36,130 nucleotides of DNA from Clostridia bacterium. GTDB taxonomy: Bacteria; CBDUZB01; JAGLHV01. The notes below the pieces were generated by a model that searched no databases, had not been told where the DNA came from, and worked only from the letters and a program-made list of their open reading frames with translations. This document shows positions 10,395-21,934 of this stretch, in pieces; the stretch's first letter is position 1, and each line of letters opens with the position of its first letter. Both the position numbers and the translations under genes were made by a program. Location: assembly GCA_030595925.1 (NCBI GenBank), contig JAUVLC010000014.1, positions 1 to 36,130 of the forward strand, read 5' to 3'.

Positions 10395-11255
10395 ATGGTT
10401 GAGACAGGAAAATTAAATAAGTTAAGAGTGATCAAAAAAGTTGATTTTGGAATTTATCTTGAAGGAGAAGAGGCTGGTGAAATTTTACTTCCCCTTAGGT
10501 ATGTGCCGGAAAATTGTGAAGTTGACGACATTATAGAAGTTTTTATCTATTTTGATTCTGAAGACCGTATTATTGCCACTACTGAAAAACCTTATGCTAT
10601 GGTGGGTCAGTTTGCTTTGTTAAAGGTTATTTCAGTTAATTCTGTTGGGGCATTTATTGACTGGGGTTTACCAAAAGATCTACTGGTACCTTTTCGTGAA
10701 CAAAAGCAAGAAATGGAAGAAGGCAAATCATATGTTGTTTTTATCTACCTTGATAAAAGTAAACGTATTGCTGCTTCTTCGAAACTGGATAAATTTTTTG
10801 ACACTCTGCCGATTAGTTTTCAGGAAGGGCAGGAAGTGGAATTGTTAATATGCTATCAAACCGATCTTGGTTATAAAGCAATTATTAACGGATGCTATGG
10901 TGGTGTCCTTTATAAAAACGAAGTGTTTCAAGTATTAGAAAAAGGACAGAAAATAAAAGGGTTCATTAAAAAAGTGAGAGATGATAAAAAAATAGATCTC
11001 TGTCTGCATAAACCCGGCTATAAAAAAGTTGATGATTTGTTGGAAAAAATTATTGACACCCTGAAAAAACGAGACGGGTTTATTCCTGTGGGTGATAAAA
11101 GTTCTACGAAAATTATTTATGAGTTGTTTGGGGTAAGTAAGAGAACATACAAAAAGGCAATAGGCGTTCTTTTCAAAAAAAGGTTGATAACTTTTGAGAA
11201 TAACGGCATAAAACTAAAAGAAAAAATACGGAAAAAGGGGGGGATTGTTAAATAA
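10395..11255 (+). CDS. cvfB: CvfB/YitL-like S1-domain RNA-binding protein
   Basis: This 286-residue protein has the organisation of CvfB: a degenerate S1-like domain (about 1-62), a central S1 domain with GAFIDWGLPKDLLVPFREQ (about 80-96), a third S1-like domain (about 145-205) and a C-terminal winged helix (about 210-275, including YELFGVSKRTYKKAIGVLFK). The family binds RNA and affects expression of virulence and stress genes in firmicutes; the role here is unknown. The last codons, reading KKGGIVK-stop, are made of GGGGG..ATTGTTAAATAA. That resembles the left end of the mobile element at 16533, so the native C-terminus may have been replaced. Confidence 0.8.
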   Translation: MVETGKLNKLRVIKKVDFGIYLEGEEAGEILLPLRYVPENCEVDDIIEVFIYFDSEDRIIATTEKPYAMVGQFALLKVISVNSVGAFIDWGLPKDLLVPFREQKQEMEEGKSYVVFIYLDKSKRIAASSKLDKFFDTLPISFQEGQEVELLICYQTDLGYKAIINGCYGGVLYKNEVFQVLEKGQKIKGFIKKVRDDKKIDLCLHKPGYKKVDDLLEKIIDTLKKRDGFIPVGDKSSTKIIYELFGVSKRTYKKAIGVLFKKRLITFENNGIKLKEKIRKKGGIVK

Positions 11256-11260
11256 TTTAA
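11237..11260 (+). repeat. Element-end-like sequence at the 3' end of cvfB
   Basis: GGGGGGGATTGTTAAATAAT resembles the left terminal inverted repeat at 16535-16555 (GGGGGACATTGTTAAATAGT), differing at three of the first 20 bases. Both are preceded by GGAAAAA. No matching right end is visible downstream, so this may be a solo remnant. Confidence 0.45.
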
Positions 11261-11428
11261 CTAATTGAAAAGAAGTTGTTATAATTGAGTAGTATCGAGA
11301 CAAGCGAGAATAAAAATATCAGGATTATTGTTGTACCGTCGGGAAACAAGTAGGTTGTAGGGAAGGTGAAATAAATTAGCTATCGAAAACAAGTGATTCA
11401 TTAAGCAAATAGTGGGGTAAGTTTTAAA

Positions 11429-15804: not shown

Positions 15805-16034
15805 GGGAGAAAAGGGGAAAGAATACTTGAGCAAAAAGTATTAATTTATTATCTTGAAACAGTCCCTCTTTTTTTTCAAAAATTTGTTAATGTTAAATAG
15901 ACGGAAAAGAAATTATTTTTTCCTCTTCTTAATCTTTCCTTCCTCAAAGGAAAAAAGAGAATAGTTGTATGGATTCTTGCTTGTCAAACTGTGTCACAAC
16001 TCTGATTTTTAAAACAATTGTAGTAACGACATTT

Positions 16035-16165
16035 AGAGATTGTTGGAAAATACAAATTTTGTAGTCGCAAACTTTAGTTTGCGTGAAAACGTGGTAATAT
16101 TTGGTAATAATAAGCAAAAAAAATCGCCGGCTGAAGCCGTCGGCTACCGTTCTTCAACAATCTCT
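16035..16165. repeat. Nested palindromic repeat with REP-like core
   Basis: The outer arms AGAGATTGTTG (16035-16045) and CAACAATCTCT (16155-16165) pair perfectly. Inside lie the REP-like units GTAGTCGCAAACTTTAGTTT.. (16061-16083) and CGCCGGCTGAAGCCGTCGG.. ending CTACC (16125-16148). These are the diverged counterparts of the pair at 7610-7674. Confidence 0.65.
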
Positions 16166-16303
16166 TTATGACGCCCGTCGGAAAAGGTGTTCATTAGCCC
16201 AATTATCCAAATTAACGATAGACAAGTAAATTGGGCAACTACATTGATTGTGACAGAGTTTCTACGCAGGAATGACAAAGAAAGTAAAGTTTCTTCGCTT
16301 TGC

Positions 16304-16461
16304 TTAGGATAACACAAGATTTTTTTTGTAATATTTATAAGCTTTTATAACAATATTCTTACTAACATTAAAACTTTTAGCTGTTTTTTTAAAAGACATC
16401 TTTAATAAATACAATTTCGTTGCTTTTTGAGTTGTTTTTTGGTACAAGGGAAGATGTTGAG
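16304..16461 (-). pseudogene. Relic of an IS transposase helix-turn-helix region
   Basis: Translating the minus strand gives LYQKTTQKATKLYLLK, then MSFKKTAKSFNVSKNIVI, then a stop. This is the pattern of the helix-turn-helix after the zinc ribbon in IS1/IS-like transposases (typically ..KA..LYL.GLSFRKIAK.LGVS..TV). A stop lies immediately upstream and nothing of the catalytic domain remains. A second, more damaged copy is at 31304-31405. Element family is uncertain. Confidence 0.45.
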
Positions 16462-16532
16462 CTTAATAAGTGCGGTTATTTCTCTTGTGCGTTGAATTGG
16501 TTGCAACCGGGAGAATTAGGACTATGGGGAAA

Positions 16533-16974
16533 AAGGGGGACATTGTTAAATAGTTAAATAACTATTAACATAACTTTGAACAATAGAGTAATATTGATTT
16601 ATGCATAGAAAAGTCAGAATAGATATACCGGAGAAGATGTTAAGCAATATTCTGTATATTGTTCCAAAATAGATTAAGTAAAAAAATATCCACGCTTAAA
16701 GACTTAATCGATCTGATAACCAAAAAATTAGTAGTTGAAGTAGTAAAATTAAAAGGAAACAGAAGGGGTGAAAAAATAGCTAAAGCCAGAGCTTTAATAT
16801 TATACATCGGGCAAAGATATTTGGGGGAGCAGGGCGCTGCAGTAGGCTTAAAATTAAACAAGAGCAGTGCCAGTATAAGTGTAGCATATAATAGAGGGAA
16901 GAAAATAATAGAGAAGGATGCAGGGGCGAAAAGTATTCTTAATGACATTTTAACTACTTAACAACGTCCCCCTT
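16533..16974 (+). mobile_element. About 440-bp element with 26-bp terminal inverted repeats
   Basis: The left end, 16533-16558 (AAGGGGGACATTGTTAAATA and on), and the reverse complement of the right end, 16949-16974 (AAGGGGGACGTTGTTAAGTA and on), agree at 24 of 26 bases. Between them is the remnant of a transposase-type helix-turn-helix domain. No target-site duplication is evident. It looks like an internally deleted, non-autonomous derivative of a Y1 (IS200/RAYT-like) transposon whose transposase carried a C-terminal DnaA-like domain. The element separates a plausible ribosome site and start codon at 16509-16526 from the rest of the propeller gene. Confidence 0.7.
16659..16961 (+). pseudogene. 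C-terminal DnaA-like HTH remnant of a Y1-type transposase
   Basis: The open frame encodes up to 100 residues with no good start site. The block KIAKARALILYIGQRYLG followed by AVGLKLNKSSASISVAYNRG matches the C-terminal helix-turn-helix often fused to REP-associated or IS200-like transposases (..ARsl..Yla.r.lG.s..evg..l..s.ssVS.a..RG..). The catalytic HUH domain that should precede it is absent. It lies wholly inside the inverted-repeat element and ends next to its right terminus. Confidence 0.6.
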
Positions 16975-18718
16975 GTGCTTACTTGGAATTGTTCTTGTTT
17001 TTTCATTTAAAGCTTGGGCAGTAGGTACATTGATTTCCATTTCTTCGGCTACTTATAATAGCCCTGCGGATGGTGATGATAATGCTTTTGGAGTAGTGGT
17101 AGACGGAGATGGAAATATTATTGTTACTGGAAGTAGTTCTAACGGAACAAATCATGATTATTATACCATCAAGTATAATAATGATTTTTCCTTAGTGCTT
17201 GCTTCGGCTACTTATAATGGCCCTGCGGATGGTGATGATTATGCTCTTGGAGTAGCGGTAGATGGAGATGGAAATATTATTGTTATTGGATATAGTCACA
17301 ACGGAACAAATCATGATTATTATACCATCAAGTATAATCCTAACCTTTCCTCGGTACTTGCTTCGGCTACTTATAATGGTTCTGCTAATGGTGATGATTA
17401 TGCCCGTGAAGTAGCGATAGATGGAAATGGAAATATTATTGTTATTGGATATAGTCACAACGGAACAAATTATGATTATTTTAGCATAAAGTATAATAAT
17501 GATTTTTCTTTAGTGCTTGCTTCGGCTACTTATAATAGCCCTGCGGATGGTGATGATAATGCTTTTGGAGTAGTGGTAGACGGAGATGGAAATATTATTG
17601 TTACTGGAAGTAGTTCTAACGGAACAAATAATGATTATTTAAGCATCAAGTATAATAGTGATTTTTCTTTAGTACTTGCTTCGGCTACTTATAATGGTTC
17701 TGCGAATGGTTTTGATATGGCGTATGGAGTAATAGTAGACGGGGAGGGTAATATTATTGTTACCGGAAACAGTTTTAATGGAACAAATCATGATTATTAT
17801 ACCATCAAGTATAATAATGATTTTTCCTTAGTGCTTGCTTCGGCTACTTATAATGGCCCTGCGGATGGTACGGATGTTGCTATTAAAGTAGCGGTAGATG
17901 GAGATGGAGATATTTTTGTCACCGGATATAGTTCCAACGGAACAAATTATGATTATTATACCATCAAGTATAATAATGATTTTTCCTTAGTGCTTGCTTT
18001 GGCTACTTATAATGGCCCTGCGGATGGTACGGATGTTGCTATTAAAGTAGCGGTAGATGGAGATGGAGATATTTTTGTCACCGGATATAGTCCCAACGGA
18101 ACAAATCATGATTATTATACCATCAAGTATAATGGTTCACCACAAATATTTTCTCTCTCTCCTTCCTTTGGTCGACCAGGGGAAACATTAGACCTTATTA
18201 TCAATGGTTCAAACTTCTATTCCGGTGCAGATATTTCTTTTAGTGATTCCGGAATAATTGTGAATTCTGTTAATTTTATTAGTGCAATGGAAATTAGGGC
18301 AAATATTACTATTGCGCAAGCTGTAGTGCCGGGTAACAGGGATGTAGTGGTTACTAATATTGATGAAGCAAGAGGAGTAATGGCCGGAAGATTTGAAATT
18401 AGAGAGAATATTGGGTACCAGGTAGAAGCTGATTTTCGTTTAGTGAAAGTAAGTCCTAGAATATTTACGCCTAATGGGGATGGGATAAATGATGTGGCTA
18501 ATTTTATTTTTGAGAATTCCCAAAACGAAGAGGTAACAGGTATGATATTTGATTTATCGGGTAGTATAGTGCGGGATGTTTTAGTGCAGAACAGTGATAC
18601 TTCTTTAATGTGGGATGGCAGGGATAATAATGGAAATATTGTTAGCGGTAAAGTATATATTTATCAGATTAAAGCCGGAAATAAGTTGTTAAACGGGACA
18701 GTAGTCTTAGCTAAATAG
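16973..18718 (+). CDS. Exported seven-repeat beta-propeller protein, 5' end disrupted
   Basis: The 581-residue frame is open from TTG 16973. It starts with the hydrophobic core of a signal peptide (CLLGIVLVFSFKAWA) but has no ribosome site and no ATG. Seven 53-residue repeats (about 25-388) have the pattern ATYN.PADG.D.A..V.VDG.GNI.VTG.S.NGTN.DY..IKYN, as in SBBP/Kelch-like propeller blades. Seven units would close a propeller. An IPT/TIG-like Ig domain (about 390-480) and a C-terminal domain beginning FTPNGDGINDVANF and containing WDGRDNNGNIVSGKVYIY follow; the latter is of the FlgD-like/gliding C-terminal type used in surface sorting. The inverted-repeat element ends exactly at the first codon. 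Deleting 437 or 440 bp joins ATG GGG AAA A.. in frame to give MGK..CLLGIVLVF, so insertion probably decapitated this gene. The binding target is unknown. Confidence 0.7.
   Translation: MCLLGIVLVFSFKAWAVGTLISISSATYNSPADGDDNAFGVVVDGDGNIIVTGSSSNGTNHDYYTIKYNNDFSLVLASATYNGPADGDDYALGVAVDGDGNIIVIGYSHNGTNHDYYTIKYNPNLSSVLASATYNGSANGDDYAREVAIDGNGNIIVIGYSHNGTNYDYFSIKYNNDFSLVLASATYNSPADGDDNAFGVVVDGDGNIIVTGSSSNGTNNDYLSIKYNSDFSLVLASATYNGSANGFDMAYGVIVDGEGNIIVTGNSFNGTNHDYYTIKYNNDFSLVLASATYNGPADGTDVAIKVAVDGDGDIFVTGYSSNGTNYDYYTIKYNNDFSLVLALATYNGPADGTDVAIKVAVDGDGDIFVTGYSPNGTNHDYYTIKYNGSPQIFSLSPSFGRPGETLDLIINGSNFYSGADISFSDSGIIVNSVNFISAMEIRANITIAQAVVPGNRDVVVTNIDEARGVMAGRFEIRENIGYQVEADFRLVKVSPRIFTPNGDGINDVANFIFENSQNEEVTGMIFDLSGSIVRDVLVQNSDTSLMWDGRDNNGNIVSGKVYIYQIKAGNKLLNGTVVLAK
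17045..18136 (+). repeat. Seven 159-bp in-frame tandem repeats
   Basis: The units start at multiples of 159 bp from 17045. Units 1 and 4 are almost identical in DNA, and so are units 6 and 7, while others differ more. This indicates recent duplication or gene conversion among units rather than simple age-ordered divergence. Confidence 0.85.
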
Positions 18719-18808
18719 AAAAGAGTAGTGAAATAGGGGACATACTACTAATCTTTTAGGCAGAAAAGAAAGTTTTATTAATAGCGATTTTCAATAGGAA
18801 TATTAATT

Positions 18809-20980
18809 ATGAAAACTAAACTAAAAATTGGTTTAATTTATGCTTTGGTAATTGTGATTATTTTGACAGTTGGTTGTTTAGAAGAAGAACGAAAACCAAT
18901 AGTTCAAATGAATTTTTCGTTAAAGAACCCGATAACCAGTTCCGTAAAGGTAATGGAAAGTATTCCAAGACTCCTTGTTGATAATAAAACAATACCGATA
19001 AGCGGTATTTTTATTTATCAGGATTTATATGTTAAACCAAAACAGGTAACTAAGCAGATTGATTGTGCGGCAGAAAATGGTTTTAGCTTTGTGATTGTTT
19101 CTATGTGGTGGTTTGCAATGGATACTGAAAAAAAACTTGATGAATTTCCGGAGGATGCTGCCAGGCGTATAAACTGGAAAAAATTAGATGAGGTTTTTGA
19201 TTATGCGGCAAGCAAAGGGGTCTATGTTATACCTGCATTTCGGTATTATTGTTCTCCACCTGCATGGTGGTATACAACCAAAGATGATAGAAACAAATAT
19301 TATGCCCAAACCAATGAAAAAGGAAAAACAACCTGGATGCCGAGTTTTAATGTAGAATTTCACGAAAAATACGCAGATCAGGTGATTACATACATGGTGA
19401 ACAGGTATAAAAACCATCCGGCATTATTAGGATGGGAACTGGGCTTTGGATGGACAGTAGAAAATAATTATCCCTCGGGTTATGGAGCAAAAGGATGGTA
19501 TGATTATTCACCTTTTTGTAAAGAGCAATTCAGGAATTGGTTAAAAAAAGCATATAAAGAGGATATTTCTAAATTAAGAGATGCGTGGGGTAATAATACG
19601 GTTACATTTAAGAATGCGGAAATGCCACAGCTATTATCTCATTGCAGGGACCTGAATAATAGAGGTGTCAATAGCGCCGGCGATAAAAGAAGGCAATTCT
19701 ATGATTGGCAATTGTTCAGATTGCAAGAGAAAAAAAAGAGCAGAAATCATTTTGCCAAACTTTTCAAGCAATTAGATTCAAATCATGTTCTTTTCGCTAA
19801 TTCCGGTGGTGGTCCTTTATCTTCCGGAGCGTTAGGGGAATCTGCTTATACTTTGAATTTAGATTATTATGATTATGCCTCGTCACCATATATAGATGGA
19901 GTCTTTTCTTGTCCCGGATTTAGAGATGACCAAAAAATAAATAATATTTATGAAACCGCAATCCGTGATTTGATAAATTATATGCATAGAAGAGGCAAAG
20001 CTACATTTATAGCATGGGAAAACTGGGGTGTTAATAAATCGGAAACGTTGCAGTACATCATTAAAATTACGGCTGATACAGGTACGGGTATGGTATTGGC
20101 GACAGGGGATATAAAAGGGCCTGGCGGTGAATTGGAATATGCATATTCTGATAAGCAGATAGAAGAAATTGCCGGAAATTTATATTTACTCAAAAACCCT
20201 CCAAAAGTTAAGAAGAAAAAATTTGCCTTTATAGATTTTTCTTTTCTTTCTGCAATAGATTATCAAAAGATGGGTTATTATGAGGGAGAATATTATCTTT
20301 CACAATATAAAAGCAAAGATGCATATTGTACAGCAATATTATTTAGGGACACTGGTTTAGACTATGACATATTGAGTATTGAGGAAATAATAAAAGAGCC
20401 GGGGATTCTAAACGAGTATCTTGCTGTTGGCATAGTAGATTTGTTTAGAATGAATGACGAATTAAAAGATGTGTTAGTAAACTACCGAAATCGGGGAGGT
20501 GGTTTATTTATAGTTGGGAGAAGCGCTGTTTTCGATAAATACGGAAATTACAATTCAACTTATTTACAGCAACTTCTCAATGTTTCATCACCAATAACGG
20601 AATATAATCTTAAATCATCTGTATTTGATGCAGACAGTTCATGGAATTTTGTTTCAGAAGATAAAAGCGGGCTAATAGAAGAGATAGAAAGTAAACAAGG
20701 AGATGGTAGGAGTTGTTACAATCTTTTCAATATTCCGGTATTTGATTATGCAAAGGAAGATTATAAAGTAATCGGACATTTAACATCTAATAATAAAATA
20801 GCGACTCTTGGTTACAAAGGAAGAACAGTTTTTTGGTTTCCCAGGATTGGGATGCAGATCTATGATAGGAGTGATACTGAACTCAAAATCACGCTAAAGT
20901 TTTTGGAAAATTTATACGTGTTTTATAAAAAACAATTTCAAACTTATAGGAAAAAAGGATTAGATTTAAATAAAAATTAA
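18809..20980 (+). CDS. Lipoprotein glycosidase-like protein (GH42-type TIM barrel)
   Basis: This is a 723-residue protein. A signal with lipobox LTVGC puts the lipidated Cys at 23. Residues about 55-460 resemble a GH42/clan GH-A barrel: SGIFIYQD, VIVSMWWFAMD, the CPPAWW-like SPPAWWYTTKD, NHPALLGWELGFGW (about 203-216), FCKEQFRNWLKKAYK with LRDAWGNN (the typical GH42 block after strand 4) and IAWENWGV near 402. A second region (about 475-715) resembles the trimerisation/glutamine-amidotransferase-like domain of GH42 enzymes, including YRNRGGGLFIVG. The usual catalytic NE after GWEL-G is replaced by FG, so the acid/base Glu is not where expected, while Glu403 in AWENW could be a nucleophile. 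It is probably a cell-surface glycan hydrolase or a non-catalytic glycan binder. Confidence 0.7.
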   Translation: MKTKLKIGLIYALVIVIILTVGCLEEERKPIVQMNFSLKNPITSSVKVMESIPRLLVDNKTIPISGIFIYQDLYVKPKQVTKQIDCAAENGFSFVIVSMWWFAMDTEKKLDEFPEDAARRINWKKLDEVFDYAASKGVYVIPAFRYYCSPPAWWYTTKDDRNKYYAQTNEKGKTTWMPSFNVEFHEKYADQVITYMVNRYKNHPALLGWELGFGWTVENNYPSGYGAKGWYDYSPFCKEQFRNWLKKAYKEDISKLRDAWGNNTVTFKNAEMPQLLSHCRDLNNRGVNSAGDKRRQFYDWQLFRLQEKKKSRNHFAKLFKQLDSNHVLFANSGGGPLSSGALGESAYTLNLDYYDYASSPYIDGVFSCPGFRDDQKINNIYETAIRDLINYMHRRGKATFIAWENWGVNKSETLQYIIKITADTGTGMVLATGDIKGPGGELEYAYSDKQIEEIAGNLYLLKNPPKVKKKKFAFIDFSFLSAIDYQKMGYYEGEYYLSQYKSKDAYCTAILFRDTGLDYDILSIEEIIKEPGILNEYLAVGIVDLFRMNDELKDVLVNYRNRGGGLFIVGRSAVFDKYGNYNSTYLQQLLNVSSPITEYNLKSSVFDADSSWNFVSEDKSGLIEEIESKQGDGRSCYNLFNIPVFDYAKEDYKVIGHLTSNNKIATLGYKGRTVFWFPRIGMQIYDRSDTELKITLKFLENLYVFYKKQFQTYRKKGLDLNKN

Positions 20981-21033
20981 ACAAGTAAATTAAAGAAGAG
21001 AAATGTTATTACAGAAAATGGTAACCAGGTTTT

Positions 21034-21068
21034 AAAGAAAATATTAGGGGAATAATGAGTCAACCAAG
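21034..21068 (+). repeat. Diverged third copy of the 33-bp repeat
   Basis: These 35 bp match 13737-13771 at 30 positions, and all differences are purine transitions. The ATTAGGG at 21043-21049 has a partner CCCTAAT at 21080-21086, so this copy may lie within a small hairpin element. Confidence 0.55.
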
Positions 21069-21172
21069 TCAATTTTGTTCCCTAATGCTAATGTTTTTCT
21101 TATATGCTGTTATCAACAACGGCTTGCTGAATTGAATGTGGAAAAAACATTGCTTATTAAGGATATGAATAA

Positions 21173-21934
21173 ATGAATATTATAGAATCGAAGTCCAATC
21201 CTAAAATAAAAAATTTAAAAAAACTGATTGCAGATAGAAAATACAGGTATTCGAATAAAGAATATGTTATCGAGGGTATTCGGGCGCTCAAGGATGTGGA
21301 TGTTATCAAGGAAATATTTGTTTGTGAGGGAAGGGCTATACCTAAGGTAGTAGCGGGAAAAACTTATATTGTAGAGAAAAATTGTTTTAAATATATATCT
21401 TCAACAGAAAACAGTCAGGGAGTGCTCGCGGTTGTTCCTCTAAAGGTGCTGAACAGTTCGGAGATTAGAAAAGATTTGAAATATGTTTTATTGGATCGCT
21501 TACAAGATCCGGGAAATATGGGAACAATTATTCGTACTGCAGCCGCATTCAACTTAAACGGTATAATCCTTACTCCGGGGTGCGTTGATCCGTTTTCTCC
21601 CAAGACGGCAAGGGCATCGGCAGGCTGTATAACCAAAACAAACGTGATAAATATCAAAAAGATGGATGAAATTAAAGGTTTTAATATAATCGGTGCTGAT
21701 TTGAAAGGAGAAGATATTGCAGGGTTTCAATGGCCTAATGGCTACATTCTTTGTATTGGCAATGAATCAGTAGGGTTGTCTGCTGAGGTAAAAGTTTCTG
21801 CTAAAGTATTGGTTTCTATTCCTATTTCGAATTCTGTAGAATCGCTCAATGCCGGTATTTCTCTGGGAATTATTTTATATTGTGCCACCATGGGAAAAGG
21901 GGGACAAAGCCAGAAACAGATAAACTTGACTTAA
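21173..21934 (+). CDS. TrmH/SpoU-family RNA 2'-O-methyltransferase
   Basis: This 253-residue enzyme transfers methyl from SAM to a ribose 2'-OH in rRNA or tRNA. The N-terminal L30-like substrate domain begins IIESKSNPKIKNLKKL and contains YVIEGIRALKD. The C-terminal SPOUT knot carries motif 1 (RLQDPGNMGTIIRTAAAF, about 117-134), motif 2 (CIGNESVGLS, about 197-206) and motif 3 (VSIPISNSVESLNAGISLGI, about 215-236). Length and N-terminal domain fit the 23S rRNA group (RlmB/YsgA/TsnR-like), but the target base cannot be told from the sequence. It is a single gene, with no close partner. Confidence 0.92.
   Translation: MNIIESKSNPKIKNLKKLIADRKYRYSNKEYVIEGIRALKDVDVIKEIFVCEGRAIPKVVAGKTYIVEKNCFKYISSTENSQGVLAVVPLKVLNSSEIRKDLKYVLLDRLQDPGNMGTIIRTAAAFNLNGIILTPGCVDPFSPKTARASAGCITKTNVINIKKMDEIKGFNIIGADLKGEDIAGFQWPNGYILCIGNESVGLSAEVKVSAKVLVSIPISNSVESLNAGISLGIILYCATMGKGGQSQKQINLT

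Follow-up and report, generated by a model that had tools for sequence, protein, structure and literature searches.

An internally deleted TIRYT-type mobile element at the border of a propeller gene without its N-terminus

The interval 16533–16974 of the window (the whole analysed stretch of 36,130 nucleotides) is a real mobile element, a deletion derivative of an element of about 1.1 kb. At its right border lies a propeller gene whose first ~12 codons are not joined to the rest. The probable origin is insertion of an element of the TIRYT type (terminal-inverted-repeat-associated Y1 tyrosine transposase) into the 5' end of this secreted delta-60-repeat propeller gene or very close to it. The window element is a new instance of an already described kind of element, an ordinary insertion and not a new system. 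It serves as a specific example of a gene interrupted or beheaded by a TIRYT, in a genome where full-length and shortened copies coexist, and the mobility of TIRYTs has hardly been studied in the literature.

Results

The shortened element and its full-length relatives

The features of the locus are as follows.

16509–16532, + strand: possible original gene start, uncertain (GGGAGA at 16509–16514, nine nucleotides, then ATG GGG AAA A from 16524)
16533–16974, + strand (transposase orientation): internally deleted TIRYT-type mobile element, identified by its terminal repeats, its alignment to the full-length copy C155 and an end motif kept in relatives
16536 to 16971: core ends of the element (GGGGAC from 16536, GTCCCC to 16971), with outer borders uncertain by a few bases
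16533–16558, + strand: left terminal inverted repeat, matching the right repeat at 24 of 26 positions
16544–16570, + strand: palindrome TGTTAAATAGTTAAATAACTATTAACA inside the left end, hairpin-capable on one strand
16565–16594, + strand: possible element promoter TTAACA-18-TAATAT, pointing at the propeller gene
16601–16629, + strand: remnant of the first codons of the transposase gene (ATGCATAGAAAAGTCAGAATAGATATACC), 84% identical to the start of the C155 element
16659–16961, + strand: transposase C-terminal remnant with a DnaA-like helix-turn-helix domain
16949–16974, - strand: right terminal inverted repeat, overlapping the stop codon of the transposase remnant
16973–18718, + strand: propeller gene without its N-terminus, with a signal-peptide hydrophobic core, seven delta-60 repeats, and TIG-like and CHU_C/T9SS-type-B-like C-terminal domains

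The inverted repeats named in the original prediction are present, and extend more weakly to 16533–16577 and 16930–16974 (45 bases each, 78% complementarity in a repeat search). The 23-base end motif GGGGACRTTGTTAARTAGTTAAA has 20 matches in the own genome against none in the control (up to three mismatches). The proposed genome search with 16533–16974 returned about 17 other or partial copies, the best of them 92% identical over 308 bp, and the ends of the window copy coincide with the ends of other copies.

One copy in the own genome is full-length (G000:C155:932–2031) and encodes a 339-aa Y1/HUH transposase between the same ends. This protein matches PF01797 (Y1/IS200-like, E=1.3e-10) and carries an NHFH motif. 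In addition, it matches REP_Tyr_transpos (REP-associated tyrosine transposase; E=2.5e-20, just under the cut-off score) and Bac_DnaA_C (E=4.1e-6, below the Pfam curated cut-off score). Among solved structures, none matches the transposase by sequence. A second full copy, 95% identical, is found in the genus-mate G002.

The window copy consists of bases 4–97 and 792–1099 of the 1100-bp C155 copy. It thus retains the left end and the promoter region and, of the transposase gene, the initial codons and the last ~100, and is devoid of the Y1/HUH part of the transposase. The predicted C-terminal transposase remnant is real: its 100 codons are 89% identical to the end of the C155 transposase, and it matches PF08299 (Bac_DnaA_C) with E=5.6e-5, below the Pfam curated cut-off score. 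Nearly the same palindrome as TGTTAAATAGTTAAATAACTATTAACA is present in C155, and the DNA fold of the palindrome region (16525–16600) has z scores of −2.1 (+ strand) and −3.2 (− strand). G000 also contains at least six copies of another shortened form, with the junction 45|~813, and G001 contains one, which means that shortened copies either are old or have spread. The deletion in the window copy is a separate one and leaves a longer layout (97|792).

Among species genomes, a scan identified 80 transposase relatives (42–48% identity) in Deltaproteobacteria, Elusimicrobia, Omnitrophota, Nitrospirae and NC10. An inverted repeat surrounds the gene in 68 of the 71 relatives examined and nearly always contains GGGACG; the element is typically near 1.05–1.1 kb long, and within ~1.03–1.14 kb in nearly all. 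Transposition of the IS200/IS605-like (HUH) kind leaves no direct target duplication. None of the 55 relatives with clear motifs has a direct repeat at the GGGACG/CGTCCC borders, but the element truly ends a few bases beyond these. At the third base outside GGGACG the two sides agree in inverted orientation in 38 of these 55 (against 20.9 expected and at most 32 in 2000 shuffles), which indicates that the repeats reach a few bases beyond GGGACG and fits the originally predicted outer borders at 16533 and 16974. The exact borders are uncertain by a few bases, because no empty site fixes them.

A second, more decayed left-end copy is located at 11230–11298, at the 3' end of an S1-domain gene (10395–11255). 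The final codons of that gene and its stop come from this copy (KKGGIVK-stop; KKGDVVK-stop in G002). G002 shares the copy, and in G001:C412 a copy lies just ahead of recQ; the insertion after the S1-domain gene therefore looks ancestral.

The propeller gene begins inside its signal peptide

The propeller protein matches TIGR02608 (delta-60 repeats) in seven stretches with E=6.9e-36. Its frame is open from 16946, the first possible start is TTG 16973, and all 581 codons are intact. As originally noted, the frame begins at the right end of the element with a signal-peptide core, and neither an ATG nor a ribosome site was found in frame before TTG 16973.

Relatives from the same and two sister species have signal peptides of 26–29 residues starting M(K/G)(R/K)K(Y/H)L. 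Readable starts include MGKKYLKFWEATLVFVGIIFFLSTKVWAVG (C142), MKRKYLVLGKIGLVLIEIVFVFSFRAWAVG (C75) and six others; a ninth relative, G001:C35, appears frameshifted, and the comparison of starts rests on eight. A conserved position precedes AVG; it falls at residue 27 in six relatives and at residue 30 in two. The window sequence LCLLGIVLVFSFKAWAVG aligns to the relatives from residue 13, beginning at the right border of the element. Residue 13, which corresponds to TTG 16973, is Leu in six of the eight relatives and is preceded by 12 codons wherever the start is readable. Since homology begins at residue 13, right at the element border, TTG 16973 must be read as an internal Leu codon, which leaves the gene without an evident start of its own. 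Unlike its genus relatives, the window gene does not encode a full N-terminal signal peptide that opens with a start codon. This calls for caution in annotation, in that the predicted TTG start is an internal codon.

The paralog with the most similar start (positions 1246–2897 of L039, G000:C142) has an in-frame TAG, and a shortened element copy directly follows its stop codon.

The left flank resembles a gene start

On the left of the element, GGGAGA, nine bases and ATG GGG AAA A are present as described, and the flanking ATGGGGAAAAAG adjoins the element. Compared with the start of paralog C142 (MGKK), this site has a higher total score than all 119 background starts; nine paralogs were compared for start likeness, so that even the total score is only suggestive. 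The part upstream of the ATG, taken alone, is matched or beaten by 12 of the 119 background starts and is not significant.

The flank supplies three to four codons (at most MGKK), and about eight of the twelve codons are found in neither flank. Reading from ATG 16524 gives MGKKGDIVK and then a stop inside the left end of the element. Moreover, GGAAAAAG also stands to the left of two other copies, G002:C201 and the one following the S1-domain gene, and A-tracts similar to it are present beside copies C50, C157 and C113. GGAAAAAG therefore cannot be counted as propeller gene sequence; this stretch of the presumed start may be a piece of the element itself or of its preferred target.

In the original prediction, removing 437 or 440 bp rejoined the start to the core in frame. 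Such a removal does restore the frame, but one in three lengths does so and the exact 442 bp (16533–16974) does not. We rejected frame restoration as evidence for that reason. The predicted splitting of the gene was upheld as to a mobile element and a signal peptide interrupted or cut away exactly at its right end, the missing residues being kept in relatives. A seamless junction of ATGGGGAAAA with the CLLG core was not supported as proposed, given 12 codons in relatives against three or four in the flank and the recurrence of GGAAAAAG elsewhere. With about eight codons absent from both flanks, no clean empty site is implied, and insertion with some target loss, or an element-bounded deletion, fits better than a clean insertion.

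Gene order and the search for empty sites

No uninterrupted propeller ortholog was found among three genomes of the phylum, all of one genus. In G002 the interval between GDPD and GH42 holds a SpoU methyltransferase and no propeller gene, and the G001 contig ends just after GDPD. The G002:C201 and G000:C50 copies yielded no empty sites, with no ortholog at their immediate flanks. At the S1-domain gene none was found either, where G002 shares the copy and the G001:C412 copy lies before recQ.

Comparison of 15805–21934 with G002:C323 gives the order GDPD-propeller-GH42-SpoU in the window and GDPD-SpoU-GH42 in G002. Within this region, 15980–16290 is a mosaic of further dispersed repeats, present many times in this genome (for example, 92% over 224 bases at C183:28912). 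These have apparent inverted-repeat ends (AGAGATTGTTGGAAAATA ... TTCTTCAACAATCTCT) and probably represent another miniature element family. A short open frame on the − strand at 16304–16447, MYQKTTQKATKLYLLKMSFKKTAKSFNVSKNIVIKAYKYYKKN, resembles by eye the helix-turn-helix start of another transposase.

Discussion

Insertion, deletion or adopted 5' region

Four observations argue for insertion of the element into the gene: the interval recurs at ~17 places, a full-length Y1 copy exists, the ends are shared, and homology to the propeller relatives starts at the right border. The ribosome site and ATGGGGAAAA on the left, which resemble the C142 start, point the same way. The element would have entered between the start codon and the hydrophobic core of the signal peptide, and would either have lost most of its transposase gene at the locus or arrived shortened, moved in trans. 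ATG 16524 would then be the old start, insertion or a later event would have cost about eight target codons, and the gene would now be silent, or else expressed only weakly from TTG 16973. Uninterrupted, it would read GGGAGA-N9-ATG, ~12 codons, then LCLLGIVLVFSFKAWA. Against this scenario stand the codons found in neither flank, the presence of GGAAAAAG at other copies, the 12 of 119 background starts that equal the upstream likeness, and the lack of an uninterrupted ortholog. Several of these points suit a less likely course of events, in which the 5' end was lost by an element-bounded deletion or rearrangement (for example, recombination of two copies) and the ATG resembles the start of the propeller gene without ever having been part of it. 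The eight missing codons and the recurring GGAAAAAG agree with such a loss, as do the repeat patchwork at 15980–16290 and the gene order differing between species. However, a good ribosome site and ATG GGG AAA A stand at the exact place, like the MGKK start of C142, and both ends of a single element are present at the locus in normal orientation.

Compatible with either insertion or deletion, though improbable, is that the element now serves as a functional 5' region, its left-end promoter reading through to a gene that starts at TTG 16973 and is still used. The frame is intact over 581 codons, the promoter-like TTAACA-18-TAATAT at 16565 sits where the transposase promoter would be, and no terminator-like site was found in 16400–17060. 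But TTG 16973 has no ribosome site and matches an internal Leu codon, a signal peptide starting there would have no basic n-region, and the promoter is a consensus match near chance level, not clearly above that of shuffled sequence. The open frame means either that the loss is recent or that the gene is still used. That the interval is a conserved regulatory leader of the propeller gene, the outcome against which the original prediction was set, has a negligible probability. It does lie directly upstream of the gene, but propeller relatives have normal starts, and transposase coding remnants lie inside it; we rejected this reading on finding the same sequence repeated at unrelated loci and absent from the propeller relatives. 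More speculatively, and with low probability, TIRYT elements may insert beside purine tracts like GGAAAAAG, remove a couple of dozen target bases as they insert, and lend sequence to host genes. The last of these draws on the left end, which reads KKGD(I/V)VK-stop after the supposed ATG and also as the last codons of the S1-domain gene (in the window and in G002).

Comparison with known elements

Judged from sequence, the features of the element fit the TIRYT/TIRtron group and TnpA_REP subclass 2.1.2. TIRYTs carry an HUH-motif Y1 tyrosine transposase between long terminal inverted repeats starting with GGGG, and the genomes that hold them also contain shorter repeat families bounded by the same termini (Di Nocera et al. 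2013, PMC3733652). Correspondingly, C155 encodes a Y1 HUH transposase, long terminal inverted repeats are found in the window, in C155 and in 68 of 71 relatives, the ends start with GGGG, and shorter repeats with the same ends occur in the same genome. The window copy differs as a deletion derivative without an intact transposase. The published repeat motif GGGGWSAS occurs in most, not all, members (PMC3733652). The ends here, GGGGACRT, fit it only in the first six or seven bases: the left end GGGGACAT at seven of eight positions and the right end GGGGACGT at six of eight.

Members of TnpA_REP subclass 2.1.2 have a C-terminal Bac_DnaA_C or other helix-turn-helix domain and are associated with inverted repeats, not REP sequences (Quentin et al. 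2018, PMC6006769). The present element shares the C-terminal DnaA-like helix-turn-helix and the inverted repeats, and would be placed there by domain layout and ends alone. The short non-autonomous copies that keep both ends, including the 45|~813 subfamily, resemble bacterial MITEs, whereas the window copy, with its 97|792 layout, stands outside that subfamily.
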